Below are positions 18,795 to 33,415 of a DNA stretch of 64,000 nt, one piece after another. The notes beneath the pieces were generated by a model. The model saw only the letters and a list, made by a program, of their open reading frames with translations. It was not told where the DNA came from and made no database searches. Each line of letters starts with the position of its first letter. Positions within the stretch are counted from its first letter, which is position 1. Source of the stretch: Gemmatimonadetes bacterium 2013_60CM_65_52 (GTDB lineage: Bacteria; Gemmatimonadota; Gemmatimonadetes; Gemmatimonadales; Gemmatimonadaceae); the NCBI GenBank assembly GCA_002215645.1, contig NGFI01000005.1:488678-552677 (forward strand). Direction: 5' to 3'. The translations under genes were made by a program, and so were the position numbers.

Positions 18795-19415
18795 ATGGAA
18801 GACATTCGGTCCCTGAAAGCGATTCAGCTCGATGCCTTGAGGGAGGTTGCGAACATCGGGGCGGGACACGCCGCAACGGCCCTGTCGCAGATGATCAACA
18901 GCACCATCATGATCTCGGTACCGACGATCAACGTCTCGCGCCTGGAGGAAGTCCCGCCGCAGATCTCGCGTCCGGAGGAACCGGTCGCCGCCGTCCTCAT
19001 GCACATGATGGGCGACCTCACCGGGCGCACGCTGCTCGTGTTTCCGAAGCCCACGGCGCTGCGGCTGGCCGAGATGATGCTGCGGCGGCCGCCTTCGTCG
19101 GCCACCGACCTGGGCGAGATGGAACAGTCGGCGATCAAGGAGGCTGGAAACATCCTGAGCAGCGCCTACATGAACGCCCTGAGCGACTTCATGGGGATGA
19201 TGCTGCTGCCGTCGCCGCCTTCCCTCGCGATAGACATGAGCACCGCGGTGCTGACGACGGCGTATCTGCAATTCGGCACGGACAAGGATTACGTGTTCTG
19301 CGTGGAGAGCGAGTTCTTCATGCAGGACGTCGGCGAAAAGCTGCGCGGCTTCTTCCTGCTGCTGCCCGATCCGGCATCACTCCAGGCCATTCTGCGCGCT
19401 GTCCGCGTCGCGTGA
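18795..19415 (+). CDS. cheC: CheC-family CheY-P phosphatase
   Basis: 206 residues of the CheC/CheX/FliY phosphatase family, which dephosphorylates CheY-P and is stimulated or bound by CheD. Both active-site motifs E-x-x-N are present: Glu17/Asn20 in LREVANIGAGHA and Glu116/Asn119 in IKEAGNILSSAYMNAL. Two intact sites mark the two-site CheC class. The protein ends with FLLLPDPASLQAIL, close to the CheC C-terminal form. There is no CheZ, so this is the likely signal-ending enzyme, with CheD encoded 10.5 kb downstream in the same run. The start follows cheA by 11 nt and the stop precedes the TPR gene by 4 nt. Confidence 0.92.
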   Translation: MEDIRSLKAIQLDALREVANIGAGHAATALSQMINSTIMISVPTINVSRLEEVPPQISRPEEPVAAVLMHMMGDLTGRTLLVFPKPTALRLAEMMLRRPPSSATDLGEMEQSAIKEAGNILSSAYMNALSDFMGMMLLPSPPSLAIDMSTAVLTTAYLQFGTDKDYVFCVESEFFMQDVGEKLRGFFLLLPDPASLQAILRAVRVA

Positions 19416-19419
19416 GTGG

Positions 19420-22137
19420 ATGACTGAGCCGCCCGTTGCATCCCTCACGTCCGAGCGCGACCGCGATGTCCTGCGGTCGTTCGCCCGCCGCATCGATCCC
19501 AGCGACGCGGGCGCGCACAACAACCTCGGCGTGCTGTACTACAACAAGGGGCTGCACGAGGAGGCGGTCGGCGCGCTCATGCGCGCGCTGGAGCTCGACC
19601 CGAAGATGCAGATTGCGCAGCGCAATCTCGAGGTCGCGTACTTCAGCACGGGCTACTATGACCGTCGCGTCGGCGAGCTGACCGAGCGGCTGCGGGCGCG
19701 TCCCGACGAGCGCGAGGCACTCTGGGAGCTGGGGCGCACGCACGCGCTGCTCGGCAAGACCGCGGAGGCGATCACCGTATTTTCGAACCTCCTCCGGTAT
19801 CATCCCAACGATATCGCCGCGCTCGTGCAGCTCGGCTTGGCGGAGCGCATCAGCGGGGACCTCGACCGTGCGCTTGGCTATCTCGAGCGGGCATTGGCGC
19901 TCGATCCGAATTCGTCGGTGGTGAACTTCTACATCGGCGAGGTGCTCTATAATCGCGGCGTGAACGAGGAGGCGCTCGCCGCACTCCGGCGGGCCATCGA
20001 GCTCAATCCGCACAATCCCGACGCGTACTATCTCATGGGGTTCGTGCTGGGGGACATCGGCCGTCAGGACGAGGCGCGCGAGGTCACGCGCCGCGCCATC
20101 CAGCTCAATCCGACGCTCTCTCGCGCACGGGCGAACCTCGTCATCGATGACCGCCGGCAGAATCGCCGGGACGACGCCACGCCGGCGCGGCCGTCGGCAC
20201 ACGTGCCGGCCATGGAGAGCACCGAGGGGCAGCTCGCCCAATACAATCTCGGTCTCGCCTTCCGTCAGAAGGGCTATTACGCGGAAGCCCTGCGCGAGTA
20301 CACGAGAGCGCTGGAGCGCGGTGAGGACCGGCCGCTCGTGCTCCAGGCGATGGCGGAGGTCTACCTGCTGCGCCGCGAGACGCGCGCCGCCGTGGAGCTG
20401 TACGACGAGCTGCTCTCCACCGCGCCGGTGAGTCCGAAGCTCTGGAACGAACGCGGCGTCGCACTGCATCAGGACGGTAAGTACGAAGAGGCGCTCGACA
20501 GCTACCGGCGTGCCGTTCGGGCGGATGCGAACTATGCGTTGGCGCACAACAATCTCGGCGTCGCCCTGAGTCATTTCGGCGAGACCGCCAAGGCGCTCGA
20601 ATCGTTCTGGGAGGCGTTGCGCGTTCAGTCAGCCTTTGGCAAGGCGCGCCTCAATCTCGCGCTGCTGCTGACCCGGCAGGGCAAGTTCCAGCTCGCGCTC
20701 GAGGCATATCGGACCGTGCTCCAGCGCGAGCCGGAGGATGCGGCCGCGTGGAATGGCGTCGGGCTGGTGCTCGTCGAGCTCAAACGCCACGGCGACGCGC
20801 GCAACGCGTTCGTGCGCGCCGTGGAAGCCAAGCCGCAATCCGCGGAAGCGCATTACAACCTGAGCTTCACGCTGTCGAACCTCGGCGACTTCGAGGGGGC
20901 GCTGCGCGAGACGAAGCGCGCGCTGGAGCTGGATCCGTATTACGTGCCCCAGAAGTTCGAGCTGGCTATCGACCTCGAGTACGAAGATCCGGATCTGTCC
21001 ATCAAGCCGGAGCTGGGCGCCGTGCAGCGTCTGGACGAAGCCGTGGAGGATTTCAGCTTCGACTCGAACGTGCTCGATACCATCTTCGAGCAGCTCACGC
21101 CAGCGCCGGCACCGGACGCAAGCGCTGGAGAGGCGGCAGCGGAGACGCCGTATGCCATGGCGGCGGACTATCTCTCAATGGGGCTGATGGACCGCGCCGC
21201 CGCCGAGGTGAGTCGCGCCATCGCGCGCGGTGCAGCGAAGGCCGAGGGATATGCGCTGCTCGGCGAGATCTATGCGCGGCAGGGTTTACATGGTGAGGCA
21301 CTCGAGCGGTATCGGTCAGCGCGCATCGAGGAGCCGTCGTCGCTGCGTGCGCAGCTCGGAGAGGCGTGGGCGTTGCTCGCCCTGAGCCGGGCTCGCGAGG
21401 CGCGTCCACTCGCCGAGACGCTGTTGGAGCAGCACGCGGGCGATGTGGACGTGGTGATGCTCGTGTCCGCCGCGCGCGCGGACTCGGGTGATCCTGCCTC
21501 CGCGCTCGCCGCACTGGATGAAGCGCGCAAGCTGGCGCCGCATCGCCCCGACGTGCACAAGCGCATGGGCGACATCGCCAGCGCGCTCGGCGACAACGAG
21601 GGGGCCATTGCCGCGTATCGCCGCGCGCTGGACCTCGACGGAGAATTCGCCGTCGTCCGCTATCAGCTCGCACGCCTGCTGCGCGCGAAAGCGCTCTTCC
21701 GCGAAGCGGAACAGGAGCTGGAGGCAGCGCTCGACGCCGTGCCGACCTATGCCGAGGCGACGCTGGAGCTGGCGTCGCTGCGAATTGCGGGCGGCCGAGC
21801 CGACGATGCGCTGAGTCAGCTCATCGCCCTGCTCGAGCGCGATCCGTATCACTTCGACGCGCTGCTCGGACTCGGCGAGACGCTCCTCGCTCTTGGACGC
21901 CGAAACGACGCGGGACATGCCTTTCGCCGCATTCTGCGCTTCGATCCGACGCACGTGGGCGCGCTGTACTATGACGGCGTGCTCCTCAACGAGCAGAAGC
22001 GCTTCCGCGATGCCATCATACGGTGGCGGCGCGTCATCGATCTCGAGCCCGCGGGCGAGTTCGCGCGGCGCGCGCGACGCGATGCGCGCACGGCGGCCGA
22101 CCTGCAGGCCATCTTCGCGTCGATGCGGAGCGCCTGA
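19420..22137 (+). CDS. Giant TPR-repeat protein (905 aa)
   Basis: A soluble protein built of tetratricopeptide repeats in two blocks, with the repeat marks N-N-L-G-V, A-Y-Y-L-M-G and D-P-x-x visible throughout. The first block covers about residues 25-510. An acidic linker (about 511-575, with LEYEDPDLS and EAVEDFSFDS) is followed by a second block to the end. No signal peptide or membrane helix is seen, so it should be cytoplasmic. TPR proteins are scaffolds; the flanking cheC, PATAN and MglA genes suggest it helps assemble this signalling complex. ATG 19420 follows cheC by 4 nt. The function is unknown and the partner is inferred only from context. Confidence 0.85.
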   Translation: MTEPPVASLTSERDRDVLRSFARRIDPSDAGAHNNLGVLYYNKGLHEEAVGALMRALELDPKMQIAQRNLEVAYFSTGYYDRRVGELTERLRARPDEREALWELGRTHALLGKTAEAITVFSNLLRYHPNDIAALVQLGLAERISGDLDRALGYLERALALDPNSSVVNFYIGEVLYNRGVNEEALAALRRAIELNPHNPDAYYLMGFVLGDIGRQDEAREVTRRAIQLNPTLSRARANLVIDDRRQNRRDDATPARPSAHVPAMESTEGQLAQYNLGLAFRQKGYYAEALREYTRALERGEDRPLVLQAMAEVYLLRRETRAAVELYDELLSTAPVSPKLWNERGVALHQDGKYEEALDSYRRAVRADANYALAHNNLGVALSHFGETAKALESFWEALRVQSAFGKARLNLALLLTRQGKFQLALEAYRTVLQREPEDAAAWNGVGLVLVELKRHGDARNAFVRAVEAKPQSAEAHYNLSFTLSNLGDFEGALRETKRALELDPYYVPQKFELAIDLEYEDPDLSIKPELGAVQRLDEAVEDFSFDSNVLDTIFEQLTPAPAPDASAGEAAAETPYAMAADYLSMGLMDRAAAEVSRAIARGAAKAEGYALLGEIYARQGLHGEALERYRSARIEEPSSLRAQLGEAWALLALSRAREARPLAETLLEQHAGDVDVVMLVSAARADSGDPASALAALDEARKLAPHRPDVHKRMGDIASALGDNEGAIAAYRRALDLDGEFAVVRYQLARLLRAKALFREAEQELEAALDAVPTYAEATLELASLRIAGGRADDALSQLIALLERDPYHFDALLGLGETLLALGRRNDAGHAFRRILRFDPTHVGALYYDGVLLNEQKRFRDAIIRWRRVIDLEPAGEFARRARRDARTAADLQAIFASMRSA

Positions 22138-22140
22138 CCC

Positions 22141-23283
22141 ATGGCCATCGAGGGACCGCTCCGCGAGCTCGGCATTCACGACGTCTTCCAGCTTCTCGAC
22201 CTGAGCCGGAAGACCGGCGCGCTGCGCGTGACGTCGGAGCTGCGCGACGACGAGGGGTTCGTGCTGTTCGACGGCGGGCGCGTCATTCACGCGAGCATCC
22301 GCAGCAATCCCACATCCATCGAGCGCATTCTCCGGCAGTCGGGAAAGCTCGGGGACAACGAGCTCGAGCTCGCGGCCAACGTCATCGACGATCCCACCAT
22401 GGGCCTCGGAGACCGCCTGGTGATGGCGCGCGTCATCACGCAGAAAGAGCTCGAGCGGCAACTCCGGCAGGCCATCGAGAACGTGGTCTTCGAGCTGATG
22501 TCGTGGCGCGAAGGATTCTTCTCGTTCGAGGAGCGGCAGGTGAGCGACGTGCCGCTCGACGCACGCATTCGCATCTCGACGGAGTCGCTCCTGATGGAAG
22601 GCGCGCGTCGTATCGACGAATGGTCGCGTATCGCCGACCGGGTGCCGAGTCTCGGGATCGTCCCGTCGTTCGCGCCGCTCGAGGACGACCGCGCCTCGGT
22701 GCTCGACCTGCTGCCCAACGAGTGGGAAGTGCTCATGATGATCGACGGCGAGCGCGACCTCCGTGAGATCGCGGCGGCGCTGGGCGCGGGAGAGTTCGAC
22801 GTCGCGAAAATCGTCTACGGATTGCTCTCCACCGGCATCGCCGAAGTGCATACGTCGGATCGTCCGTCGCAGCGGACACTGGAGCGGATCGACGACGAGC
22901 GTCCGGCCATCGCGCAGGCGCGTGAGGCGCTTGACGCGGGCCGATTCGAGGAGGCCATCGTCGCGGCGCGGACGGCGTCGGAGCTCGAGGGAGAATCGAC
23001 ACAGGGCCGCCTGCTGGTCGCCAAGGCGCTAGGGCGGCTCGGCCGGCGCCACGAAGCGGTGGACGAGCTGCGTCGCGCCGTGCAGGCCGACCCGCTCACG
23101 CCGGACGTGCATCTCAATCTCGGCTTCGCCGCCGTGAACGTCGGTGATTTCGCCAACGCGCGCGCCAGCTGGGAGCACTTTCTCCGTCTCTCGCCCGGGT
23201 CGGCGGATGCTGCCCGCATTCAGGCGGCGCTCGAGATCCTCAATCGTCTCCTTCACGTGCTCGAGGCCCATGGCGACGTCTGA
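22141..23283 (+). CDS. PATAN/DUF4388-TPR protein 1
   Basis: 380 residues. The N-terminal ~120 form a PATAN-type DUF4388 domain: LRELGIHDVFQLLDLSRKTG, then GFVLFDGGRVIHA, and FELMSWREGFFSF. PATAN domains occur in PatA-like regulators of type IV pilus motility and phototaxis. A middle helical region (to ~250) contains NEWEVLMMIDGERDLREIA, an element typical of the DUF4388 family. The C-terminal ~120 residues are TPR repeats (HEAVDELRRAVQADPLTPDV). There is no receiver domain. ATG 22141 follows the previous gene by 3 nt, and the stop lies inside the next gene. A paralogue with the same plan is at 27.5 kb; the two frame the roadblock/GTPase/AAA+ genes. Confidence 0.85.
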   Translation: MAIEGPLRELGIHDVFQLLDLSRKTGALRVTSELRDDEGFVLFDGGRVIHASIRSNPTSIERILRQSGKLGDNELELAANVIDDPTMGLGDRLVMARVITQKELERQLRQAIENVVFELMSWREGFFSFEERQVSDVPLDARIRISTESLLMEGARRIDEWSRIADRVPSLGIVPSFAPLEDDRASVLDLLPNEWEVLMMIDGERDLREIAAALGAGEFDVAKIVYGLLSTGIAEVHTSDRPSQRTLERIDDERPAIAQAREALDAGRFEEAIVAARTASELEGESTQGRLLVAKALGRLGRRHEAVDELRRAVQADPLTPDVHLNLGFAAVNVGDFANARASWEHFLRLSPGSADAARIQAALEILNRLLHVLEAHGDV

Positions 23284-24091
23284 CGACATCCGGCGCATGA
23301 GCGACGAGCTCGCACGTGACCCGGGAAGCCGAGTCTTCGTGCCGCTGGGCGACGTCCTGCGCCGTCAAGGGCAGTATGACATCGCGCTCAAGATGGCGCT
23401 CAAGGGTCTCGAGCGGCATCCGCACCTGGTCGAGGGCCACGACCTGCTGGCACGACTGTACGTGGACCGCGGCGAGTTCGAGAAAGGCTTCGACGAATGG
23501 GACATGGTGCTCCGACTTTCGCCGGGACACCTCGGCGCCTTGAAGGGGCTCGGGTTCATCTGCTACCAGCACGAACGCTTTGCCGACGCGGAGCGCTATC
23601 TGTCGGCGGCCGCCCGCATCGATCCGGCGGACGCCGAGGTGGCGAGCGCATTGGAGCACGTCCAAGCCGGACATTTGCAGGCCGCCCGGGCGGGTGAAAC
23701 CCCGCTGCCGGCCTCGATCGCCGCGGACAGCCGCTTTCTCTTCGTGGACGTGCTCCGCGAGGATGGGCAGACGGCCCTTCTCCTCGATCAACAGGGTCTG
23801 GTGCTCGCCGGCGCGTACTTCAACGCCGACGGGGTGGACGTGGCGCAGAACGTCGGAGCGGAGCTGAGTGGCGTCACGGACGCGGCGCGCCGTGCGACAC
23901 GTCACCTCGCCCTTGGCGACTGGTCCTCCATCGTGTTCGAGACGGAGGTTGCCGTGGTCGCGATGGCTCCGGCGCCATCCGATGGCCTCCTCGTGCTCGC
24001 GACGACGCGGGAGACACCACTCGGTCTCGTGAGACGCCTGCTCGACCGCTGCTCGGAGCACGCGGCGCGCTGGTTGAGAGGGTTGATCTAA
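23270..24091 (+). CDS. TPR protein with C-terminal roadblock-like domain
   Basis: 273 residues. The N-terminal ~150 are TPR-like repeats (RRQGQYDIALKMALKGLERH, then FADAERYLSAAARIDPADAE). From about residue 160 a roadblock/LC7-like fold follows: LLLDQQGLVLAGAYF, a helix with VGAELSGVTDAARRATRHL, SSIVFETEVAVVAMAP, and GLLVLATTRETPLGLVRRLL. Roadblock proteins such as MglB act on MglA-type GTPases as activating or exchange factors. ATG 23270 is inside the end of the previous gene and the stop overlaps the next ATG by one base. It is the first of three consecutive roadblock-like genes before the GTPase. Confidence 0.78.
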   Translation: MATSDDIRRMSDELARDPGSRVFVPLGDVLRRQGQYDIALKMALKGLERHPHLVEGHDLLARLYVDRGEFEKGFDEWDMVLRLSPGHLGALKGLGFICYQHERFADAERYLSAAARIDPADAEVASALEHVQAGHLQAARAGETPLPASIAADSRFLFVDVLREDGQTALLLDQQGLVLAGAYFNADGVDVAQNVGAELSGVTDAARRATRHLALGDWSSIVFETEVAVVAMAPAPSDGLLVLATTRETPLGLVRRLLDRCSEHAARWLRGLI

Positions 24092-24456
24092 TGGCGGGAG
24101 TCTTTACGCCCATGCTGCAGGCCATCGGTCGCCATCGCGGGGTCACTGCGGCGTTGGTGGTGGACGAGCGCGACGGCATCGTGGTCGAATCGCACTTGCA
24201 CGTCGGTGTCGAGGAGGATCGTGTGGCCGCGCTGGCCGCGTCGCTCTATCGGAAGGCACGCCTCTCCTCGCGCGCGGCCGGCATGGGCGCCGTGTCGTTC
24301 ATGCAGCTCGAGGCGCCCGGTGGCCGACTGTGTGCGATTGGTGCGGCCGAGCTGGTGCTCATCGTCGTGGCGCAGCCTTCGGTCAACGTCGGCCTGGTGC
24401 GGGTGGAGATGTTGCGGTCGATTGCCCGACTGGTCGAGGCGGGTGGCGGCGCATGA
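24091..24456 (+). CDS. Roadblock/LC7-domain protein (MglB-like)
   Basis: 121 residues matching a stand-alone roadblock domain. The first strand pair ALVVDERDGIVVES is followed by a helix with RVAALAASLYRKARLSSRAA, then SFMQLEAPGGRLCAIG, ELVLIVVAQPSVNVGLVRVEM and a final helix. This is the layout of MglB/roadblock regulators. Start ATG 24091 shares a base with the previous stop (TAATG), and the stop overlaps the next start as ATGA. The MglA-type GTPase is two genes on. Whether it acts as GAP, exchange factor or scaffold cannot be read from sequence. Confidence 0.8.
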   Translation: MAGVFTPMLQAIGRHRGVTAALVVDERDGIVVESHLHVGVEEDRVAALAASLYRKARLSSRAAGMGAVSFMQLEAPGGRLCAIGAAELVLIVVAQPSVNVGLVRVEMLRSIARLVEAGGGA

Positions 24457-24926
24457 TGACGATGGTCGTCGAGTCGTGGATCGAGGAGCCGCTGCGCCGC
24501 TTCGTGGACGATGCCCAGGTGGAGCTCGCGCTGCTCCTGCATCCAAACGGGCAGGTGCTGGCACAGCACGGTTTCACTCGCGCCGTGGACGTCATGACCG
24601 CGTGCGCGCTCGCGGCGGGGATTCACGCCACGAGCAACGAGCTGGGTCGGCTGGTGGAAGACAAGCCCTTCCGGGGACTGCACCACGCTGGCGTTGCCCG
24701 CCAGATCTTCATTTCGGAGGCACGCTCGCAGCGCGGAGCATACATTTTCCTAACGGTGTTCGGTTCGGAAAGCTCACTCGGTCTGGTCCGCCTGTATTTC
24801 AACGAGCTCGCAGCGGGCTTGGCCGCGGCGGCGCCTCCGGAGGGCGCCGCACCGGCGCCAGCGCTGGCGGAGCAGTTCGAGCAGGAGCTCAACCGAAATC
24901 TTGCCGTGCTGTTTGGCCGCGCCTGA
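24453..24926 (+). CDS. Roadblock-like protein, third of the series
   Basis: 157 residues. The core resembles a roadblock domain: LLLHPNGQVLAQHGF, VMTACALAAGIHATSNELGR, FRGLHHAGVARQIFISEA, YIFLTVFGSESSLGLVRLYF. An Ala/Pro-rich hinge and a short C-terminal helix follow (LAEQFEQELNRNLAVLF). The similarity to MglB is weaker than for the preceding gene. ATG 24453 overlaps the previous stop (ATGA); a second ATG lies one codon on. The GTPase gene begins 21 nt after the stop, the longest gap in the whole run. A dimeric partner of the GTPase is the most reasonable guess. Confidence 0.72.
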   Translation: MMTMVVESWIEEPLRRFVDDAQVELALLLHPNGQVLAQHGFTRAVDVMTACALAAGIHATSNELGRLVEDKPFRGLHHAGVARQIFISEARSQRGAYIFLTVFGSESSLGLVRLYFNELAAGLAAAAPPEGAAPAPALAEQFEQELNRNLAVLFGRA

Positions 24927-24947: not shown

Positions 24948-25562
24948 GTGTCGCTCGTCAACTACGCCACACGCGAGATTACGTGCAAGATCGTCTACTA
25001 TGGCCCGGGTCGCTCGGGCAAGACGACGAATCTGCATTACATCTACGGTCAGGTCCCTGAAGACAGAAAGGGGAAGATGGTCTCGCTGGCCACGCAGACG
25101 GACCGCACGCTGTTCTTTGACTTCCTGCCGCTCGACCTTGGCTCCATCTCGGGGTTCACCACCAAGTTCCAGCTCTACACCGTGCCGGGGCAGGTCTACT
25201 ATCAGACCACGCGGCGGCTCGTGCTCCAGGGCGCGGACGGCGTGGTGTTCGTGGCGGACAGCCAGACCCGACAGCTCGCCGAGAACATCGAGAGCTTTCA
25301 GGATCTGCATGCAAATCTGGCGGAGCAGGGTGTCGACCCGAGGACGATGCCGCTGGTGGTGCAATACAACAAGCAGGACCTGCCAAAGGAACTGATTCTC
25401 CCCGTCAGCGAGCTCTCGGACGCCATCAACTTTCGGGACGTTCCGGAATTCGCGGCCGACGCGCTGCACGGGCCCGGCGTCTTCGAGACGCTGCGAGGCA
25501 TCTCCGAGCTCGTCCTGCGACGGTTGAGCGCCGGAGCTGGCGCGACACCGGCCAGCAGATAA
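24948..25562 (+). CDS. mglA: MglA-type Ras-like GTPase
   Basis: Small GTPase of the MglA family, the polarity switch of gliding and type IV pilus motility in Myxococcus and Thermus. P-loop GPGRSGKT is at residues 19-26; the glycine-rich second half fits MglA. Next come TQTDRTLFFDFLPLDLG, the switch II region YTVPGQVYYQTTRRLVL, which has the MglA VPGQ form rather than the Ras form, and NKQD at 141-144 for guanine. 204 aa is the usual size. GTG 24948 is the only start before the first strand. It follows three roadblock-like genes and precedes the tandem DnaA-like gene by 2 nt. The GTPase-polarity role is known for the family; the target here is not. Confidence 0.92.
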   Translation: MSLVNYATREITCKIVYYGPGRSGKTTNLHYIYGQVPEDRKGKMVSLATQTDRTLFFDFLPLDLGSISGFTTKFQLYTVPGQVYYQTTRRLVLQGADGVVFVADSQTRQLAENIESFQDLHANLAEQGVDPRTMPLVVQYNKQDLPKELILPVSELSDAINFRDVPEFAADALHGPGVFETLRGISELVLRRLSAGAGATPASR

Positions 25563-25564
25563 CG

Positions 25565-27487
25565 ATGCAGGTCGATCCGCGCGCGCGCTTCGAAAACTAC
25601 GTCGTGGGCACGGCCAATCGGCTCGCCGTGGCCGCCGCGCGCGCTGTGGCAGAGTCGCCCGGCGCCGTGTACAACCCGCTCTTCGTCTACAGCGGGTCGG
25701 GGCTCGGCAAGACGCACCTGATCAACGCCATCGGCAATCACGCGCAGCAGCGGGCGCCGGAGCTCGGTATCGAGTACGTGGGGCTCGAGGACTTCGTGCA
25801 GCAGTTGCACGCCGCCATGGCGGCAGGCGAGATGGAGCGCTTCAAGCAGCGGTACGGACGCGTGGACGTCCTGCTCGTAGACGACCTGCAATTTCTCACG
25901 GGGCGCCGCGAGACCCAGAGTGAGCTGCTGCGCTTGTTGAACGCACTCCAGGGGAGCGGACGTCAGATCGTCATGACGAGCGATCGCCCGCCCGCGGAGA
26001 TCAGCGACGTCGACGAACGCCTGATCAGCCGCCTCAGCGGTGGACTCATCGTGGACATTGGCGCGCCCGATTACGAGACCCGCGTCGCCATTCTCCGCGA
26101 GAAGTGCGAGGAGCGGCAGATCTCCTTTGCGGCCGGCGTGCTGGAGGAGCTGGCGCGGGTGGAGTTCGGCAACGTGCGCGAGCTCCAGGGCGCACTGAAC
26201 CGCCTCAGCGCCCATCAGTCGCTCGACGGAACGCTCACGCCGGCGCAGGTGCGAAGCATCGCGGGCCTGCCCGAGCCCGCGGCGCCACCGGCGCGCACCT
26301 CAGTTCAGACCGACGAGTTCTTCAGCTTCCTCACCGACATCGCGAGCGCCGTCGCGGCGCACGTGGAGCCATGGAAGGTGCGCATCGGCGAAGCCGTGGC
26401 GTACTGGAGCGGAGAAGGTTACCGGACGTCGGCGCTCGAGACGATGATGTCGATGTCCGAGGCGCCACCGAACTATGAATCGTTGCTGCGCGGCTATGGA
26501 CAGGCCGTGGAGCAGCTCCGTGAGTTGGAGCGACAGGTGACGACCGTGGACGCGCGGCTTGGCGGAAGTGACCTGTTCCGGGATCCCGAGCGCCTGGCCG
26601 AAGCGACGACGTTCGTGCAGAACGCGCTTGCCGGCGCCGTTCCGCCAGGAGGACCGCAACCCGCGTTCGCTCGGAACGGATTCGAGGAGAGCGCCGCCAA
26701 TCAGATGGCGGTGCGCGCCGCGGATGTCGTCATCGCCGAGCCGGGGCAGCGGTACAATCCTCTCTTCCTGCTCGGTCCCACGGGCGTGGGCAAGACACAT
26801 CTCCTCAACGCCATCGGCAACGAGCTACAGCTGCGGTTCGGCGCCGGCGGACGCGTGGCATGCGTGAGCGCCCAGCTCTTCATCGAGGAGCTCATCGCGG
26901 CGCTGCAGGAGGGAACGGTCGAACGCTTTCGCGCGCGATACCGCGCGGCCGACGCGCTGCTGATCGACGACGTGCAGTTCGTGGGCTCCAAGGAGCGCAC
27001 GCAGGAAGAGCTCTTTCACGTCTTCAACCACTTTCACGCGGCCGGAAAGCAGCTCGTCTTCGCGAGCGACATTGCGCCCAGGAACATCGAGGGCCTCGAG
27101 GACCGCCTCCGTTCGCGCTTCGAGGGTGGTCTCGTGGCGGAGATCGGCCAGCCCGACCGGCCGTTGCGCGAGAAGCTGTTCATCCGGTTTGTCGCCGATG
27201 CGCGACTGAGCGTTCCGCCCGAGGTGATTGCCTATCTCGCGGACCGGCCGGCGACGAGCGTCCGCGAGCTGATGGGCACCGTACAGCGCCTGCGCGCCGG
27301 GCTGGAAAGCCTGGGCGTTGCGGCCACGCTTGCGACGGCGCGTCAGATTCTCGAGCCGTCGGGCATGACGCCGAGCAGCGCGCCCATCGCTGTGCGACAG
27401 GCGGCAGACACGTTCTTTCTGGACGACGAGAAGATCGTATGGGAGTGGCCCGACGTCGCCGGCCGCCTGGTGGAGGAGCTGCGCTGA
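25565..27487 (+). CDS. Tandem DnaA/Hda-type AAA+ ATPase without DNA-binding domain
   Basis: 640 residues with two complete DnaA-like AAA+ modules. Module 1 (about 5-235): FENYVVGTANRLA as in DnaA domain III, Walker A GSGLGKTH at 44-51, Walker B VLLVDDLQFL ending near 111, and sensor 2 NVRELQGALNRL. Module 2 (about 380-590): RYNPLFLLGPTGVGKTH, Walker A near 403, Walker B ALLIDDVQFV near 463, and sensor 2 SVRELMGTVQRL. Between them lies a helical linker of ~140 residues. The DnaA domain IV helix-turn-helix is absent, and the C-terminus ends in a short segment (DDEKIVWEWPDVAGRLVEEL). It is placed between the MglA GTPase (2 nt) and a PATAN-TPR gene (1-base overlap). No related family member is known to me from motility loci; function unknown. 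Confidence 0.85.
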   Translation: MQVDPRARFENYVVGTANRLAVAAARAVAESPGAVYNPLFVYSGSGLGKTHLINAIGNHAQQRAPELGIEYVGLEDFVQQLHAAMAAGEMERFKQRYGRVDVLLVDDLQFLTGRRETQSELLRLLNALQGSGRQIVMTSDRPPAEISDVDERLISRLSGGLIVDIGAPDYETRVAILREKCEERQISFAAGVLEELARVEFGNVRELQGALNRLSAHQSLDGTLTPAQVRSIAGLPEPAAPPARTSVQTDEFFSFLTDIASAVAAHVEPWKVRIGEAVAYWSGEGYRTSALETMMSMSEAPPNYESLLRGYGQAVEQLRELERQVTTVDARLGGSDLFRDPERLAEATTFVQNALAGAVPPGGPQPAFARNGFEESAANQMAVRAADVVIAEPGQRYNPLFLLGPTGVGKTHLLNAIGNELQLRFGAGGRVACVSAQLFIEELIAALQEGTVERFRARYRAADALLIDDVQFVGSKERTQEELFHVFNHFHAAGKQLVFASDIAPRNIEGLEDRLRSRFEGGLVAEIGQPDRPLREKLFIRFVADARLSVPPEVIAYLADRPATSVRELMGTVQRLRAGLESLGVAATLATARQILEPSGMTPSSAPIAVRQAADTFFLDDEKIVWEWPDVAGRLVEELR

Positions 27488-29106
27488 TGGCGATCAAGGG
27501 TAGCCTCAAGGAGGCCAGTCTCCCCGACGTGCTGCAGCTCCTTTCCATGGGGAAAAAGACGGGCTGCCTTGCCGTGACGCACCGCAACAACTTCGGGTAC
27601 GTCTACTTCGACAAGGGTCTCATCTCGTACGCGTCGATCGTGAATCGGCGCGACCGCATCGGCGACATCCTCGTCAAGGCCGGCGCCATCACGCAGACGC
27701 AGCTCGACGCGGCCATCAGCGCGCAGGCCCTGCATCGTGACAAGCGCATCGGCGAGCTCCTCGTGGCGCAGGGTGCCGTGAAGCGCGAGCAGCTCCATGC
27801 GCAGATCCGCCTCCAGATCGAGGAGGCGGTGTACTACCTGTTCACCTGGACGCAGGGGACGTTCAACTTCGAGGCCGACGTCCGTCCGGAAGAGCAGGAC
27901 TTCCTCGTCTCCATCAACCCGGAGTCGCTGCTGCTCGAGGGCGCGCGGCGCGTGGACGAGTGGAGCCTGATCGAGAAGAAGATCTCCAGCCTCGACCTCG
28001 TGTTCGACGTGGACCGCCGCAAGCTGGCCGAGAGCGGCGTCGAGCTTCCGGAAGATCAGCGGCAGATCATGGATCTCCTCGATGGGCGTCGCGACGTCCA
28101 GGCGGTGATCGAGGAATCGGGGATGGGCGAGTTCGACGTCGGAAAGGCCATCTTCGGCCTCGTGTCGGCCGGCTTTGCGCAGCGGGTGGGCAAGACGAAG
28201 GCGACGGAGCCCACGGTGAGCGACGCACGCGTCGACGAACATCGCAACCTCGGCATCGCGTTCTACAAGACCGGCATGCTCGACGAGGCCATGCGCGAGT
28301 TCCGCCGCGTGAGCGAGCTCCGTGAGCACGACGTGGAAGCGCGGTTCTACATCGGGCTCGCGCTCATGCGGCAGCAAAAATGGTCCGATGCGGTCGTCGC
28401 CTTCCGGGAGTGCGTCACGCAGCCCGGCGCGCGGCCGGCGGCCTTTCATAACCTCGCGCATGCGCTCGAGCGGTTGGGGCGCTTCGACGAAGCCAAGAGC
28501 GCGCTCGACGGCGCCATCCGTCGCGGCGGGGCGAAGGACCCGCGCATCCAGACGTCGCTCGGAGTCGTAGCCCTTCGCGGCGGCGACCTCGTGTCGGCGG
28601 ACTCCGCATTCAGCGCGGCTCGTCCCCTGTTTGGCACGAAGCCGCCGACGGCGCCCTGGTACCACTATGCGGCCCTCACGGCGGCGCTGCTCGGCGATCT
28701 CGAGCGGGCATACACGCTGCTCACGGAAGGCATCGGGTCGCACCCGCATGCCGCGCCGCTGCACAACAACATGGCCGCCGTGCAGGAGCGCCGCGGCTAC
28801 CACCCTGAAGCGCTGAGCGCGGCGGAGCGTGGCGTTCTCGAGGACACCGGCCTGCCGCAACTGCACAAGAATCTCGGCGACTGCCACTATCGCGCCGCGC
28901 GCTACGACGACGCGATGGAGTGCTATCTCCGCGCCGTGAAGCTGAGTCCCGCGCTGGGTGACGACATCTACCTCAAGCTCGGCAACATCCGCTTCAAACG
29001 GCAGGAGCGCGAGGAGGCCGTGCGCTGCTGGGAGCAGTCGCTCGCGCTCGATCCGGAGAACGCGATCGTCCGCACGAATCTCGAAGCTGTGCGGCAGGTG
29101 CTGTAG
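27487..29106 (+). CDS. PATAN/DUF4388-TPR protein 2, with MshEN-like segment
   Basis: 539 residues. The N-terminal PATAN/DUF4388 domain (KGSLKEASLPDVLQLLSMGK, KTGCLAVTHR, GYVYFDKGLISYASI) is followed by two RIGDIL/RIGELL repeats (about residues 57-110, RIGDILVKAGAITQTQLDAA and RIGELLVAQGAVKREQLHA). These resemble the MshEN/GspE N-terminal fold found in type IV pilus and secretion ATPases, where some copies bind c-di-GMP. Then come FTWTQGTFNFEAD, the DUF4388 tail element and about seven TPR repeats to the end. The ATG shares a base with the previous stop (TGATG). It is paralogous to the gene at 22.1 kb but carries the extra MshEN-like part. An adaptor between the pilus or polarity machine and Che signalling is inferred. 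Confidence 0.83.
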   Translation: MAIKGSLKEASLPDVLQLLSMGKKTGCLAVTHRNNFGYVYFDKGLISYASIVNRRDRIGDILVKAGAITQTQLDAAISAQALHRDKRIGELLVAQGAVKREQLHAQIRLQIEEAVYYLFTWTQGTFNFEADVRPEEQDFLVSINPESLLLEGARRVDEWSLIEKKISSLDLVFDVDRRKLAESGVELPEDQRQIMDLLDGRRDVQAVIEESGMGEFDVGKAIFGLVSAGFAQRVGKTKATEPTVSDARVDEHRNLGIAFYKTGMLDEAMREFRRVSELREHDVEARFYIGLALMRQQKWSDAVVAFRECVTQPGARPAAFHNLAHALERLGRFDEAKSALDGAIRRGGAKDPRIQTSLGVVALRGGDLVSADSAFSAARPLFGTKPPTAPWYHYAALTAALLGDLERAYTLLTEGIGSHPHAAPLHNNMAAVQERRGYHPEALSAAERGVLEDTGLPQLHKNLGDCHYRAARYDDAMECYLRAVKLSPALGDDIYLKLGNIRFKRQEREEAVRCWEQSLALDPENAIVRTNLEAVRQVL

Positions 29107-29107
29107 C

Positions 29108-29923
29108 GTGACGGACACGCAAGACGAAGCATTCGCGTCGCTCACCGAGAAGATCGCGCGAGAGCGCGGATTCGGTTGCGCAAGCTACAAGGAGAAGTGC
29201 CTGCGCCGCCGCATCGCGGTGCGCATGCGCGCGAAGGGCGTGCACACCTATGGCGACTACGCCCGCGTGCTCGACACGGATCAACAGGAGTACGACCGGC
29301 TGCTCGACGCGCTGACCATCAACGTCACGAAGTTGTTCCGCAACTGGGAGACGTATGCCGTGATCGCGGAGAAAGTCGTGCCGGCGCTGTGGGCCCGTTC
29401 GGGCCCGATCGACGTCTGGAGCGCCGGTTGTTCCTCCGGCGAAGAGCCCTATTCGCTCGGCGCACTCTTTCATCGCCACGCTGAATCGCTCGGCCAGCTC
29501 GCGGACCTCGCCAAGCGCGTCCGGATCCTCGGAAGCGACATCGACACGCGCTGCCTGGCGGCGGCAGAACACGGCACTTTCGAGGAAGGCGATTTTGTCG
29601 ATACACCGGCGGAACTCAGGCGTCGATACTTTGATTCCACCGCGCCATTCACGATCATCCCCGACGTCAGGCGTCTCGTGCGCTTCGAGCGCAGAGACCT
29701 GCTCGCGGAACCGGCCCCTCCCGGAACGTTTCACCTGATCTGCTGCCGCAACGTGCTCATCTACTTCGATCGTGAGACACAGGAGCGCCTGTTCGCGAAG
29801 TTTCGCGGCGCGCTCGCGCCGGACGGTTTTCTCGTGCTGGGCAAGGTCGAGACGCTGCTTGGCTCCGCGAGGACGCGCTTCGCCCCGGTGGACGGGCGCG
29901 AGCGCGTCTACCGGCCGCTGTGA
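29108..29923 (+). CDS. cheR: Chemoreceptor glutamate methyltransferase CheR
   Basis: Methylates receptor glutamates with S-adenosylmethionine for adaptation. 271 residues: an N-terminal helical domain with YKEKCLRRRIAVRMRAKGV and VTKLFRNWETY, then the SAM-binding VWSAGCSSGEEPYSLG, the LGSDID acidic loop, and the CheR hallmark FHLICCRNVLIYFDRETQ. There is no C-terminal pentapeptide tether or TPR. GTG 29108 follows the preceding stop by 1 nt, and its stop overlaps cheD as GTGA. A receptor must exist elsewhere in the genome for this enzyme to act on, since none is encoded here. Confidence 0.94.
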   Translation: MTDTQDEAFASLTEKIARERGFGCASYKEKCLRRRIAVRMRAKGVHTYGDYARVLDTDQQEYDRLLDALTINVTKLFRNWETYAVIAEKVVPALWARSGPIDVWSAGCSSGEEPYSLGALFHRHAESLGQLADLAKRVRILGSDIDTRCLAAAEHGTFEEGDFVDTPAELRRRYFDSTAPFTIIPDVRRLVRFERRDLLAEPAPPGTFHLICCRNVLIYFDRETQERLFAKFRGALAPDGFLVLGKVETLLGSARTRFAPVDGRERVYRPL

Positions 29924-30417
29924 CGACGTCGCTGATCGAGGTCCGTGTAAAGGTCGCGGACTTTGCCGTCCGCCAGGGCGACGTGGTGCTCACCACCATC
30001 GGTCTGGGGTCGTGCGTTGCCATCGCCCTGTACGACCGCGAAGCCCGCGTGGGCGGCCTGGCGCATATTCTCCTGCCGTCGCCATCGATGTCGCGCGAGA
30101 CGGCCAATCCGGCGAAGTTCCCCGAGACGATCGTTCCCGTGATGCGCGACGAGATGCGTCGCCTCGGCTCCGCGTCGGACGCGCACGTGAGCGCGAAGAT
30201 CGTGGGCGGGGCAAGCATGTTCGGCCAGCTCACCACCGGCGGCGGCATCAACGTGGGCGAGCGGAACGTGGCGGCGACGCGTGAGGTGCTCGCGGCGGCG
30301 GGCATTCCACTCCTCGCGGATGATACGGGGCTGGACTACGGCCGCAGCGTCTACTTCTTCCTGGATGACGGCCGCGTCGAGGTCCGGTCGCTGAAGAAGG
30401 GAGATCGTGTCATCTGA
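29920..30417 (+). CDS. cheD: Chemoreceptor glutamine deamidase CheD
   Basis: Deamidates receptor glutamines and binds CheC to modulate CheY-P loss. The 165-residue protein has the catalytic Cys32 in TIGLGSCVAIALYD and His49 in GGLAHILLP, with KIVGGASMF and NVGERN further on. Start GTG 29920 overlaps the cheR stop (GTGA) and the end lies 11 nt inside cheB. Together with the two-site CheC at 18.8 kb it gives the CheC/CheD feedback pair known from Bacillus and Thermotoga. Confidence 0.94.
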   Translation: MTTSLIEVRVKVADFAVRQGDVVLTTIGLGSCVAIALYDREARVGGLAHILLPSPSMSRETANPAKFPETIVPVMRDEMRRLGSASDAHVSAKIVGGASMFGQLTTGGGINVGERNVAATREVLAAAGIPLLADDTGLDYGRSVYFFLDDGRVEVRSLKKGDRVI

Positions 30418-31486
30418 CGCTCGGGCCACCGTCCTCGTGGTGGATGACAGCGCCTTCATGCGGCGCCTCATCGGCGAGATGGTGGACGCGTCGCAGGAAT
30501 TCCGCGTCATCGGCACGGCGCGCAACGGGCTCGACGCGCTGCGGCAGATCCATGCGCTCGACCCACAGATCGTCACGCTCGACGTGGAGATGCCGGAGCT
30601 CGACGGCCTTCAGACGCTCGGCTACATCATGAGTGAGACGCCTCGCGCGGTCGTGATGCTCAGCGCCGCGCAGTCGGTCGGCGGCGTGGACCTGACGCTT
30701 CGCTGCCTCGAGATCGGCGCGGTGGAGTTCATCAGGAAACCGTCGGGTGCCATCAGTCTCGATCTCGAGCGTGTGGGCGACCAGCTCGTGACCGCCCTTC
30801 GCGCGGCGCGCGAAAGCAATCTCCGCGGCGTCACGGCGCTGGCTCGCCCGCCCTGGGTGGAGTCGAGGCCGCCGCGCCCCGCGAGCGCGAATGTGAAGTG
30901 GGCGGTGGCCATCGCGACGTCTACGGGCGGTCCGCGAGCGCTCGCCGAGGTCATTCCGCACCTGCCGGCGGACCTCGATGCCACGGTGTTCGTGGTGCAG
31001 CACATGCCCGCCGGGTTCACCCGCGGACTTGCGCAGCGGCTCGACACCATGAGCCAACTTCGCGTGCACGAGGCGTCGGAAGGACAGGCGGTGGAGGTGA
31101 ACAACGTCTACGTCGCGCCCGGCGGGTTGCACATGCGCGTGGCCGGCAGGGGCGAGAGCGGCCGTCGCATCGCCCTGGACGACGGCCCTTCCATCTGGGG
31201 AGTGCGTCCCGCTGCAGATCCGCTGTTCGCCTCCGTGGCCGAGCAGTTCGGCCAGCACGCCGTGGGTGTGGTGCTCACCGGAATGGGGCGAGACGGAGCC
31301 GAGGGTCTGAAGGCCATCCGCCACGCGGGGGGCGGCGGAATCGTGCAGGACAAGGAGTCGTCCACCATTTATGGAATGCCCTTCGCGGCGCTGCAGCGCG
31401 CGGGCGCTGACCGGGTGTCGCCGCTCGATCACGTCGCACCGTCCGTGGTACAGATGCTCGCCTCACGACGGAAGGCGGTCGCATGA
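30407..31486 (+). CDS. cheB: Chemotaxis methylesterase/response regulator CheB
   Basis: 359 residues: a receiver domain with phosphorylation site Asp59 (VTLDVEMPELDG), a linker, and a methylesterase domain. The catalytic triad is visible as Ser172 (ATSTGGPRAL), His199 (VVQHMPAGF) and Asp296 (TGMGRDGA). It removes methyl groups added by CheR and may deamidate. Start GTG 30407 lies in the end of cheD, and its stop overlaps the next gene as ATGA. Motifs and length are regular for CheB. Confidence 0.95.
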   Translation: MSSDARATVLVVDDSAFMRRLIGEMVDASQEFRVIGTARNGLDALRQIHALDPQIVTLDVEMPELDGLQTLGYIMSETPRAVVMLSAAQSVGGVDLTLRCLEIGAVEFIRKPSGAISLDLERVGDQLVTALRAARESNLRGVTALARPPWVESRPPRPASANVKWAVAIATSTGGPRALAEVIPHLPADLDATVFVVQHMPAGFTRGLAQRLDTMSQLRVHEASEGQAVEVNNVYVAPGGLHMRVAGRGESGRRIALDDGPSIWGVRPAADPLFASVAEQFGQHAVGVVLTGMGRDGAEGLKAIRHAGGGGIVQDKESSTIYGMPFAALQRAGADRVSPLDHVAPSVVQMLASRRKAVA

Positions 31487-32283
31487 TCGAGGACCACTGG
31501 GCCCTCGAGCGTCGCGCATTCGCGAACACTCCCGATCCGGAGTTCATCTATCGATCGCCGTCGTTTGCCGAGGGCTATGCACGCCTGCTGCACGACGCGA
31601 CGGATCTTCGCGGCGGCCTGTCCCTCATCACCGGAGAGATTGGCTGCGGCAAGACGATGCTCGCGCGTGCACTGGCCGATCGGCTGGCTGGCTCCACGTG
31701 CGACCTCATCGAGGTGCCCTACCCGAAGGTGACGCCGACGCAGATGCTCCAGACCGTGGCCGGTGGACTCGGCATCCAGCCGCCGCCCAGGGGCAAGCTT
31801 GCTCTGGTGCAGGCCATCGCCGCGCGTCTGGCGGAGCGTCATGCCGAGGGGCGGAGGCCCGTGCTCATCGTTGACGAGGCGCAGCTCGCGACGCCATCGC
31901 TGCTCGAGGAAATCCGCCTGCTCACCAACCACGAGGCGCGGCAGGACAAGTACCTCCACGTGGTACTGTTGGGGCAGCCCGAGCTGCGGCAGCGGGTGAA
32001 ACAGCGTCCGCAGATCGATCAGCGCGTCAGCCTGCGGTTTCACGTGGAGCCGATGGAGGCGGAGGACGTTCGTGGTTACGTCGAGCACCGCTTGCGCGTA
32101 GCAGGATGGAAAGGCAAGACCATATTCACGCACGACGCGTTCACCGCGCTCGCTGCCCGCAGTGAGGGGATTCCGCGGCGCATCAACACGCTCGTGACGC
32201 AGGCGCTGTTCGTCGGCGCCATGCGGCAACTGACAGCCATCGACGGCGAGCTCATGTTCGACGTCGCGGACGACCAGGAATGA
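31483..32283 (+). CDS. ExeA/GspA-like AAA+ ATPase
   Basis: 266 residues of the ExeA/TniB-type AAA family. FANTPDPEFIYRSPSFAEG is the usual N-terminal signature, followed by LSLITGEIGCGKTMLARALA (Walker A at 51-58), VLIVDEAQL (Walker B), LLGQPELRQRV and EGIPRRINTL. ExeA/GspA proteins help place secretins of type II secretion or pili through peptidoglycan. The membrane helix and peptidoglycan-binding domain of full-length ExeA are missing here; only the ATPase part exists. It starts within cheB (ATGA) and overlaps the following cheW by 4 nt. Its presence inside a che operon suggests a motility-linked rather than secretion-linked role (inference). Confidence 0.85.
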   Translation: MIEDHWALERRAFANTPDPEFIYRSPSFAEGYARLLHDATDLRGGLSLITGEIGCGKTMLARALADRLAGSTCDLIEVPYPKVTPTQMLQTVAGGLGIQPPPRGKLALVQAIAARLAERHAEGRRPVLIVDEAQLATPSLLEEIRLLTNHEARQDKYLHVVLLGQPELRQRVKQRPQIDQRVSLRFHVEPMEAEDVRGYVEHRLRVAGWKGKTIFTHDAFTALAARSEGIPRRINTLVTQALFVGAMRQLTAIDGELMFDVADDQE

Positions 32284-32939
32284 AGAAGAAGCGTATCCGC
32301 TACAGCGAGCTCTCGCCCGTGCCGCGCGAGGAACAGAAGCGTCGCATCTCCACCCCCGTCGATCTCGCGCGCGCCATTGCGGCGGAGCGAGCCGCGGAGG
32401 CGGCGATGGCCGCGGCGGCCGCTGCACGTGACGCCCACGCATCGGCCGGCGACGAGTCGGTTCCGGCGTCGGCATCGGTCGCTCAGAGCGTGGATCAGCC
32501 GCGCGTGGCGCGGAGCGAGTTGCTCCTGTTCCGCGTGGCGCACGAGCGCTTCGCCGTTCCACTCACGGACGTGGAAGAAGCCGTTGACAGGGCGGTCGTG
32601 CATTTCGTCCCCGAGATGCCGCCATCCATGCTCGGCGTCGTCTCCCTGCGCGGATCGCTCGTGTGCGTCTTCTCTCCCAATCTGGCACTCGGGCTCCCCG
32701 CCACCGAGCAGCACACGGTGCTCATCTTTCATCAGGGCCCGACGCGCGTTGGCGTGCTCGTGGACGACGTCGAAGACGCCGTCACAGTGGATCCCAGCGA
32801 GCTGCGAAACCCGCCGATGGCCGAGCGGAGCGAGATGGTACACGCCGTCGCTCGAGTCGGTGATGAGCTCCTGTCCGTGGTGGATCCCCAGCGCCTCATC
32901 TCCGCGTGTCAGCGCGGAACGTTCGCGGAAGCCACATGA
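32280..32939 (+). CDS. cheW: CheW-like coupling protein 2 with long N-terminal extension
   Basis: 219 residues; the CheW domain starts near residue 78 (SELLLFRVAHERFAVPLTDV, then PPSMLGVVSLRGSLVCVFSP, VGVLVDDVEDAVTV, LLSVVDPQRLI). The first ~75 residues are a separate extension: a very basic start (MKKKRIRYSEL), then an Ala-rich helix (AAERAAEAAMAAAAAARDA). Nothing in the extension matches a known domain; it could be a tether to a partner. The start overlaps the ATPase stop (ATGA) and the stop overlaps the next cheW (ATGA). It is one of three CheW genes, and the most divergent of them. Confidence 0.88.
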   Translation: MKKKRIRYSELSPVPREEQKRRISTPVDLARAIAAERAAEAAMAAAAAARDAHASAGDESVPASASVAQSVDQPRVARSELLLFRVAHERFAVPLTDVEEAVDRAVVHFVPEMPPSMLGVVSLRGSLVCVFSPNLALGLPATEQHTVLIFHQGPTRVGVLVDDVEDAVTVDPSELRNPPMAERSEMVHAVARVGDELLSVVDPQRLISACQRGTFAEAT

Positions 32940-33415
32940 GTACACAGGGCAACAAGCTCGTCATCTTCTGCCTTGGCGAAGACCATTTCGCGGCCGACGT
33001 GCACGTCGTCGAGCGGGTGCTTCGCTACGCGTCGCCTACGCCGGTGCCGGACACGCCCGCCTACATCGAGGGGGTGCTGGACTACCTCGGCCGCGTGGTG
33101 CCGATCGTGAATCTCCGCCGCCGACTGGAGCTCGAGCCCCGCGAGGTGCGCCCCGAGACGCGCACGGTGGTCCTGAACGTCTCCGGCGAATGGATTGGGC
33201 TGGTCGTGGATTCGGTGACGGAGGTGGCGCCGTTCGAGCAGGCGAGCCTCTCGGCGCCGCCGAAGATGTTCCGCGGGCTCACACGCGATTACGTGAAGGG
33301 CATCGTGCGTCTGAACGGTAGGCTCGTCATCTATCTCGACGTGGAGCACCTGCTCAGCTCCACGGAGCGCATCGCGCTGCAGAGCTCCGGAGCGGAGGCC
33401 CTCGCCGGTGAGTGA
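32936..33415 (+). CDS. cheW: CheW-like coupling protein 3
   Basis: 159 residues, one CheW domain: LVIFCLGEDHFAADVHVVER, then DTPAYIEGVLDYLGRVVPIV, NLRRRLELE, WIGLVVDSVTEV and VKGIVRLNGRLVIYLDVEHLL. ATG 32936 overlaps the stop of the previous cheW (ATGA); the frame continues upstream to 32906 but only shadows that gene. Having two adjacent, different CheW genes plus one at the start of the locus points to more than one array or to a branched receptor-kinase link. Confidence 0.92.
   Translation: MSTQGNKLVIFCLGEDHFAADVHVVERVLRYASPTPVPDTPAYIEGVLDYLGRVVPIVNLRRRLELEPREVRPETRTVVLNVSGEWIGLVVDSVTEVAPFEQASLSAPPKMFRGLTRDYVKGIVRLNGRLVIYLDVEHLLSSTERIALQSSGAEALAGE

Follow-up and report, generated by a model that had tools for sequence, protein, structure and literature searches.

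The 64,000-nucleotide stretch of the Gemmatimonadetes bacterium 2013_60CM_65_52 genome analysed here (contig NGFI01000005.1, positions 488,678 to 552,677 of the forward strand; hereafter the window) encodes three distinct roadblock proteins directly upstream of an MglA-type small GTPase, and the linked retention and loss of these three genes suggests a larger regulatory platform for MglA than in the one-regulator systems that have been studied. All four genes lie on the forward strand: gene C (23270..24091, 273 aa) fuses an array of tetratricopeptide repeats (TPRs) to a roadblock domain, gene D (24091..24456, 121 aa) encodes a bare roadblock domain, gene E (24453..24926, 157 aa) a roadblock protein of the MglB type that carries a conserved motif at its C-terminus, and gene F (24948..25562, 204 aa, GTG start) the GTPase. 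C and D overlap by 1 base and D and E by 4 bases, and 21 bases separate E from F. The window proteins all score above the 23-bit Pfam cut-off for Robl_LC7 (C 33.4, D 36.7 and E 23.7 bits, E barely so). A preliminary description of this DNA had proposed three consecutive roadblock-like proteins ahead of the GTPase, to be given up if the first and third proved to have another fold; a roadblock domain is recognized by sequence in all three, and the observation of a triple roadblock set with MglA is confirmed.

Chance can be excluded for this arrangement, because the gene order is conserved across Gemmatimonadota. With separate TPR and roadblock profiles used for C, all five parts (the TPR and roadblock parts of C, and D, E and F) were found in 71 of 80 loci picked by MglA, which are the best 80 of 234 confirmed and biased to close relatives; in the other nine, cut by contig ends, the first part found starts less than 130 bases from the end of the contig. 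A stricter earlier synteny count gave 51/69, a lower figure owing to C matching in two pieces or to gap limits. The loci picked by C were complete in 30 of 30 cases, an outcome that selection by C favours. In a survey of 200 Gemmatimonadota genomes with hit thresholds set by hand, D was found in 92 genomes, E in 89 and both in 88, F of the cluster type in 103, and D, E and F together in 82. D of the cluster type occurs in six of the ten families sampled (f1, f2, f3, f4, f6 and f9) and was not seen in this survey in families f5, f7, f8 and f10. Five further genomes carry a diverged F beside E; in another (G105), D is present and E, matched only over residues 6-69, is disrupted, whether through mutation or in the assembly; its contig stops short of F. 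An MglA 87% identical to that of the window is found on a contig labelled Planctomycetota (L053), the only record title to give another phylum, which is probably mis-binned.

The roadblock domain of C is recognized by Pfam and is visible in part in the structural model. Pfam places TPR matches within residues 25-128 of C and a Robl_LC7 match that spans positions 17-90 of the 91 in that model. In the AlphaFold2 model (mean predicted local distance difference test (pLDDT) 93.2; predicted template modelling score 0.60, which leaves the orientation of the TPR part relative to the roadblock part open), TPR helices lie within residues 4-142 and the roadblock part occupies residues 168-272 in the order b-b-a-b-b-b-a. 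Compared with the order of the fold, a1-b1-b2-a2-b3-b4-b5-a3, a clear helix 1 is missing, and the Pfam match likewise begins only at model position 17. A fold search with the C model was uninformative on the roadblock part, all 50 matches listed being TPR proteins; two Shiga toxin models found by C in NCBIfam (E-value 0.09, 12 bits against cut-offs of 733 and 736) were dismissed as chance matches. Among aligned relatives, Robl_LC7 is recognized in 38/44 C proteins at an E-value of at most 0.001, and in 41/42 D and 30/40 E proteins at an E-value of at most 0.01.

D and E point to different relatives. The D profile ranks archaeal roadblocks (E-value 1.4e-9) and dynein roadblocks (5e-7) first among PDB chains, with weaker matches to CvnB5 (0.0088), LAMTOR2 (0.03-0.09) and MglB (0.097), and the D model (pLDDT 94.6) finds Asgard (Z 19.1), actinobacterial (17.9), LAMTOR2 (17.8) and MglB (16.8) roadblocks, several of them nearly tied. 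In sequence, D is nearer the archaeal and dynein roadblocks and is not close to MglB, so that its earlier label of a stand-alone MglB-like domain is right about the stand-alone roadblock and wrong about the likeness. The third protein had been called a divergent roadblock-like protein; it is a roadblock protein, but it is also the MglB-type member of the set. E matches Myxococcus xanthus MglB as a single sequence (E-value 8.4e-09) and solved MglB by profile (1e-15), its best match among solved chains, which it covers across 105 residues, and its family consensus ends in DFERELNRNLAxLFGR. On these sequence grounds, we take E to be the MglB of the locus. A recent triplication was rejected, as D and E retrieve solved relatives of different kinds and the C-roadblock, D and E profiles cross-match at only about 5-30 bits. 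Median identity to the window proteins is 50% for C and D, 58% for E and 83% for F, and the C and D families hold invariant positions.

F matches solved Myxococcus MglA with an E-value of 1.7e-74 and carries the TVPGQ and R-T motifs. An arginine beside the G2 threonine is among the Group 1 MglA features described in PMC4316618, and F, which has this arginine together with TVPGQ and the match to solved MglA, falls in Group 1. Across 91 full-cluster rows, R53 is found in 89 and Q82 in 90, and nucleotide-binding and catalytic positions are retained. The C-terminal helix of M. xanthus MglB drives nucleotide exchange, as reported in PMC6785124, and the conserved C-terminal motif of E stands where that MglA-binding helix does. 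The charge pairs differ: of the partner lysines in F, K181 is R in 68/91 and K in 21/91, and K185 is E in 83/91. When conserved positions of MglA that had changed were mapped, 14/66 fell in the pocket for the MglB helix in lineages without C, D and E, compared with 10/114 in divergent lineages that keep these genes (one-sided p = 0.018, with pocket limits chosen by us and with one lost lineage, g9, giving 0/7). Within the lost lineages, p was 0.009-0.021 for change in at least one lineage and 0.10-0.23 for change in at least two; a pocket-specific change of the MglA surface after C-D-E loss is thus weakly indicated.

We also considered D as MglC and rejected it. The FDI motif of MglC (F25, D26 and I28, around G27) is lacking in the D family, which has D in 74/76, G in 76/76 and I in 42/76 at these places, with F absent among the five commonest first-place letters. 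The KRK patch by which MglB binds MglC is mostly not retained in the E family, in which R115 is kept in 23/78 (window included) and replaced by Q in 55/78. MglC is not listed in the sequence profile search with D, and the D model finds it (7ct3) at rank 33 with Z 13.4, compared with Z 16.0-19.1 for ranks 1-24.

A series of natural deletions bears on how the four genes work together. The roadblock part of C and D are co-present or co-absent in 41 of 41 region loci, seven of which are loci of other-type MglA without either; these two go together, and E can go alone. Two loci (L143 and L144) hold C, D and F without E, one (L145) holds C and D without E or F, and one (L135) is without F; no remnants of the missing genes were found in these four by tblastn. 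The C-type TPR was not detected in L135 and L162. C, D and E are all absent from 18 of the 103 genomes with cluster-type F; the DUF4388-TPR, DnaA-like and chemosensory (Che) genes of the surrounding cluster are retained in 15 of these 18 loci, and the other three (L130, L131 and L147) have lost more of the cluster. The F-only loci occupy three places in the F tree, and at one of these they nest in a supported group (98/94) that also contains full and C-D-F loci. Starred branches by themselves require no more than two changes for this label, which there also covers seven other-type MglA rows. Loss of C, D and E is more likely than repeated gain, because other families of the class carry the full set (L142 and L156-L160).

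Rate covariation was assessed from pairwise distances, correlated after correction for how far the downstream DUF4388-TPR protein had diverged, in all 73 usable loci, in the 65 that remain when loci with a misassigned DUFa open reading frame are excluded, and in the 63 closest loci. The C roadblock, D and E correlate with one another at 0.50-0.61, 0.44-0.57 and 0.62-0.74, respectively, and in the 73 loci their mean exceeded the means with the DnaA-like protein and with the TPR part of C in 300/300 resamples. The links among roadblocks hold in every locus set; those with F and with the TPR part of C do not. This covariation suggests, without proving it, contact between the roadblocks, and a joint action of C, D and E is supported by the co-loss and covariation of the three roadblock domains.

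The reading that we favour, tentatively and at somewhat less than an even chance, is that E is the GTPase-activating protein (GAP) of F, and that C and D together make up a non-enzymatic, TPR-tethered platform serving the MglA-MglB unit. E would then be the regulator in the strict sense, with a GAP activity expected from its family, and C and D would pair as a second roadblock layer without GAP activity of its own, which may bind the MglA-MglB unit by docking on E or on F. The TPRs of C could fix the unit to the DUF4388-TPR and pilus-motor side of the chemosensory pathway, whose genes would determine the place or time at which MglA-GTP is turned off; the families involved point to type IV pili as the probable output. 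This reading draws on the conserved block, the co-occurrence of C and D, the loss of the three genes together, the covariation and the match of E, rather than D, to MglB, and the assignment of a platform role follows from E keeping the C-terminal motif when its MglC-binding patch is mostly lost. The layering of MglC on MglB in Myxococcus, described in PMC10329633, provides a precedent. Further support comes from a natural fusion (L155, 4231-5109), in which the gene directly ahead of mglA joins a C-type TPR to a roadblock of the MglB type; it makes the scaffold-tethered regulator that the TPR fusion had originally suggested more likely, with the tether itself still a presumed one. That a C-D heterodimer stacks on an MglB homodimer and MglA in a bacterial parallel to the layered Ragulator-Rag system, TPR-tethered to a chemosensory DUF4388/pilus-motor hub and made or broken by the nucleotide state of MglA, is a speculation to which we give rather low odds.

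Several observations weigh against the platform reading. F manages without all three roadblock proteins in the 18 F-only genomes, C and D can serve without E and, judging from L145, perhaps without F, and neither D nor a C-type roadblock was detected in the locus with the natural fusion. N37 and R98 serve GAP activity in M. xanthus MglB according to PMC11016934; in the E family, position 37 is S in 54/78 and N in 5/78 (window included), and position 98, in a gappy stretch of the alignment, is R in 13/78, with the window protein lacking R98. These two residues do not define MglB, because the Thermus MglB row also lacks both. Position K120 is E in 56/78 (window included), and the Myxococcus MglB-MglC contact is mostly lost. 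The covariation of the roadblocks with F depends on the locus set (0.16-0.39 in 73 loci, 0.35-0.54 in 65 and 0.57-0.61 in the 63 closest), and F matched the mutual covariation of the roadblocks in 34/300 resamples of the 73 loci. The C roadblock correlates with its own TPR part at 0.41 in that set, with values of 0.17 in the 65 and 0.23 in the 63 loci.

The same data can be read in other ways. The preliminary description had envisaged heterodimers with separate GAP and exchange roles; in this divided labour, E would be the GAP and the C-D pair a separate exchange factor or receptor that acts directly on MglA. Loci with C, D and F but no E speak for an exchange role of C-D apart from E, the covariation of D with F lies at 0.39-0.61 whichever locus set is used (0.16-0.57 for E with F), and heteromeric roadblock/longin complexes are often guanine nucleotide exchange factors or GAPs, as noted in PMC9481161 and PMC10933270. 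However, Myxococcus MglB is reported to hold both activities (PMC6785124, PMC11016934), E retains its conserved motif at the position of the exchange helix, and L145 carries C-D with neither E nor F, and we consider divided labour unlikely. L145 instead fits a proposal in which C and D serve the chemosensory/DUF4388 machinery as adaptor roadblocks, make no contact with MglA and are its neighbours only through a shared pathway: C-D is kept there after E and F are gone, the C roadblock covaries little with F in the 73 loci (0.16), and some roadblock/longin proteins act apart from GTPase control, according to PMC10933270. Against this, C-D and E are jointly absent from the 18 F-only genomes, in 15 of which the locus still has the Che, DUF4388-TPR and DnaA-like genes, and C-D covary more strongly with E than with the DnaA-like protein; this proposal appears quite improbable to us.

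A third possibility, that E is a homodimeric MglB, with C and D as decaying or redundant paralogs that have no distinct job, might be read from the fact that all three genes can be lost and from their fast evolution relative to F (the median identities given above). Against it stand the reading frames and gene order maintained across six of the ten sampled families, the invariant positions in C and D and the confident models of both, and we give it little credence.

The four genes lie within a chemosensory gene cluster encoded on the same strand. CheA (16834-18783) and CheC (18795-19415) mark its upstream end and are followed by a long TPR protein of 905 aa (19420..22137) and a DUF4388-TPR protein (22141..23283; DUF4388 101.7 bits), the gene of which lies directly upstream of C and overlaps it. 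Beyond F lie a protein with two DnaA-type AAA+ domains (25565..27487; Bac_DnaA in two stretches), a second DUF4388-TPR protein (27484..29106; DUF4388 132 bits) and, downstream, CheR, CheD, CheB, an AAA_22 ATPase and two CheW proteins (29102..33415). The second DUF4388-TPR protein matches the MshE-related c-di-GMP-binding model NF053729 (47.2 bits, cut-off 38), which represents a possible second-messenger input. DUF4388 is PATAN-like. PATAN domains bind the pilus extension motor PilB in a cyanobacterium (PMC10519157, citing Han 2022), and PMC4316618 documents MglA loci in the vicinity of PATAN genes. The DnaA-like protein adjoins mglA in 77 of the 80 loci picked by F; the remaining loci, L052, L078 and L085, end at mglA. 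The reuse of a replication-initiator-type ATPase inside a motility-type cluster is odd; the sole Bac_DnaA_C match of the genome, belonging to its one DnaA with a C-terminal DNA-binding domain, lies outside this cluster at C14:101910. The genome has ten matches to the pilus/secretion ATPase family and five to chemoreceptors, none of them within the window. The premise of one GTPase holds for the locus and fails for the genome, which contains a second, ordinary mglB-mglA pair at C13:76848-77767. In this second pair (L169 6411-7966; C13 about 76.4-78.0 kb), MglB retains R98 and R115 of M. xanthus MglB, and its C-terminus is an acidic tail. An orphan D-type roadblock is also present in the genome (L001 1429-1809; C13:682169), and the adjacent open reading frame matches the receiver part of CheB.

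Several roadblock proteins per MglA are already known, both from M. xanthus and from loci with one MglA and two MglB genes. In M. xanthus, mglC stands apart from the other genes of the polarity module (MglA, MglB, MglC, RomR/RomX and the co-GAP RomY), which resembles our locus in its Group 1-type MglA, its true MglB, the presence of an additional roadblock protein and its control by a chemosensory system. MglB, MglC and RomY act around one MglA there (PMC10329633, PMC9481161), and PMC9481161 places no known motility gene among the neighbours of romY. In contrast, two extra roadblock genes, one of them TPR-fused, form an overlapping series with mglB in the window, and most residues of the MglB-MglC contact have been replaced. 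Two-MglB loci were described in 2014 by Wuichet and Sogaard-Andersen (PMC4316618), so that the earlier statement that most MglA loci carry one MglB needs this qualifier; as in our locus, additional roadblock genes are coupled there to a single MglA, and a link to PATAN proteins has been reported. The difference is that three roadblocks, one TPR-fused, occur here within a Che cluster, and no set of three is reported in the accessible part of that paper. In the actinobacterial conservon (CvnB/CvnD), a roadblock protein and an MglA-family GTPase likewise share an operon, and CvnB5 is among the matches of the D profile; it differs in having one roadblock, a sensor kinase and a Group 2 GTPase (PMC4316618), whereas F keeps the Group 1 arginine. 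Bdellovibrio resembles our locus in the partnership of MglA with a TPR protein, Bd2492, and in a lineage loss of mglB (PMC3983030), although no roadblock domain is mentioned for Bd2492 in the available portion of that source. The likeness to Ragulator (LAMTOR2/3 and 4/5) and the Rag GTPases consists in several roadblocks near one GTPase system and in the D model, which scores slightly higher with LAMTOR2 than with MglB. However, a Rag-type GTPase with its own roadblock is absent here, the sequence of D shows no greater likeness to LAMTOR2 than to MglB, and heterodimers and layers are features of Ragulator, our locus being known from genes and single-chain models. In the open-licence literature (titles and beginnings of abstracts), we found no description of the TPR fusion, the fixed roadblock triple or the Che/DUF4388/DnaA-like setting.

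Layered, GTPase-controlled roadblock complexes have been proposed to be ancient (PMC10329633). The locus described here packs three distinct roadblock proteins and MglA tightly together, and natural deletions remove different combinations of them; because of this, it can serve as a test bed for how one GTPase gained several roadblock regulators, and also for the way in which chemosensory signalling is connected to MglA in bacteria other than Myxococcus.

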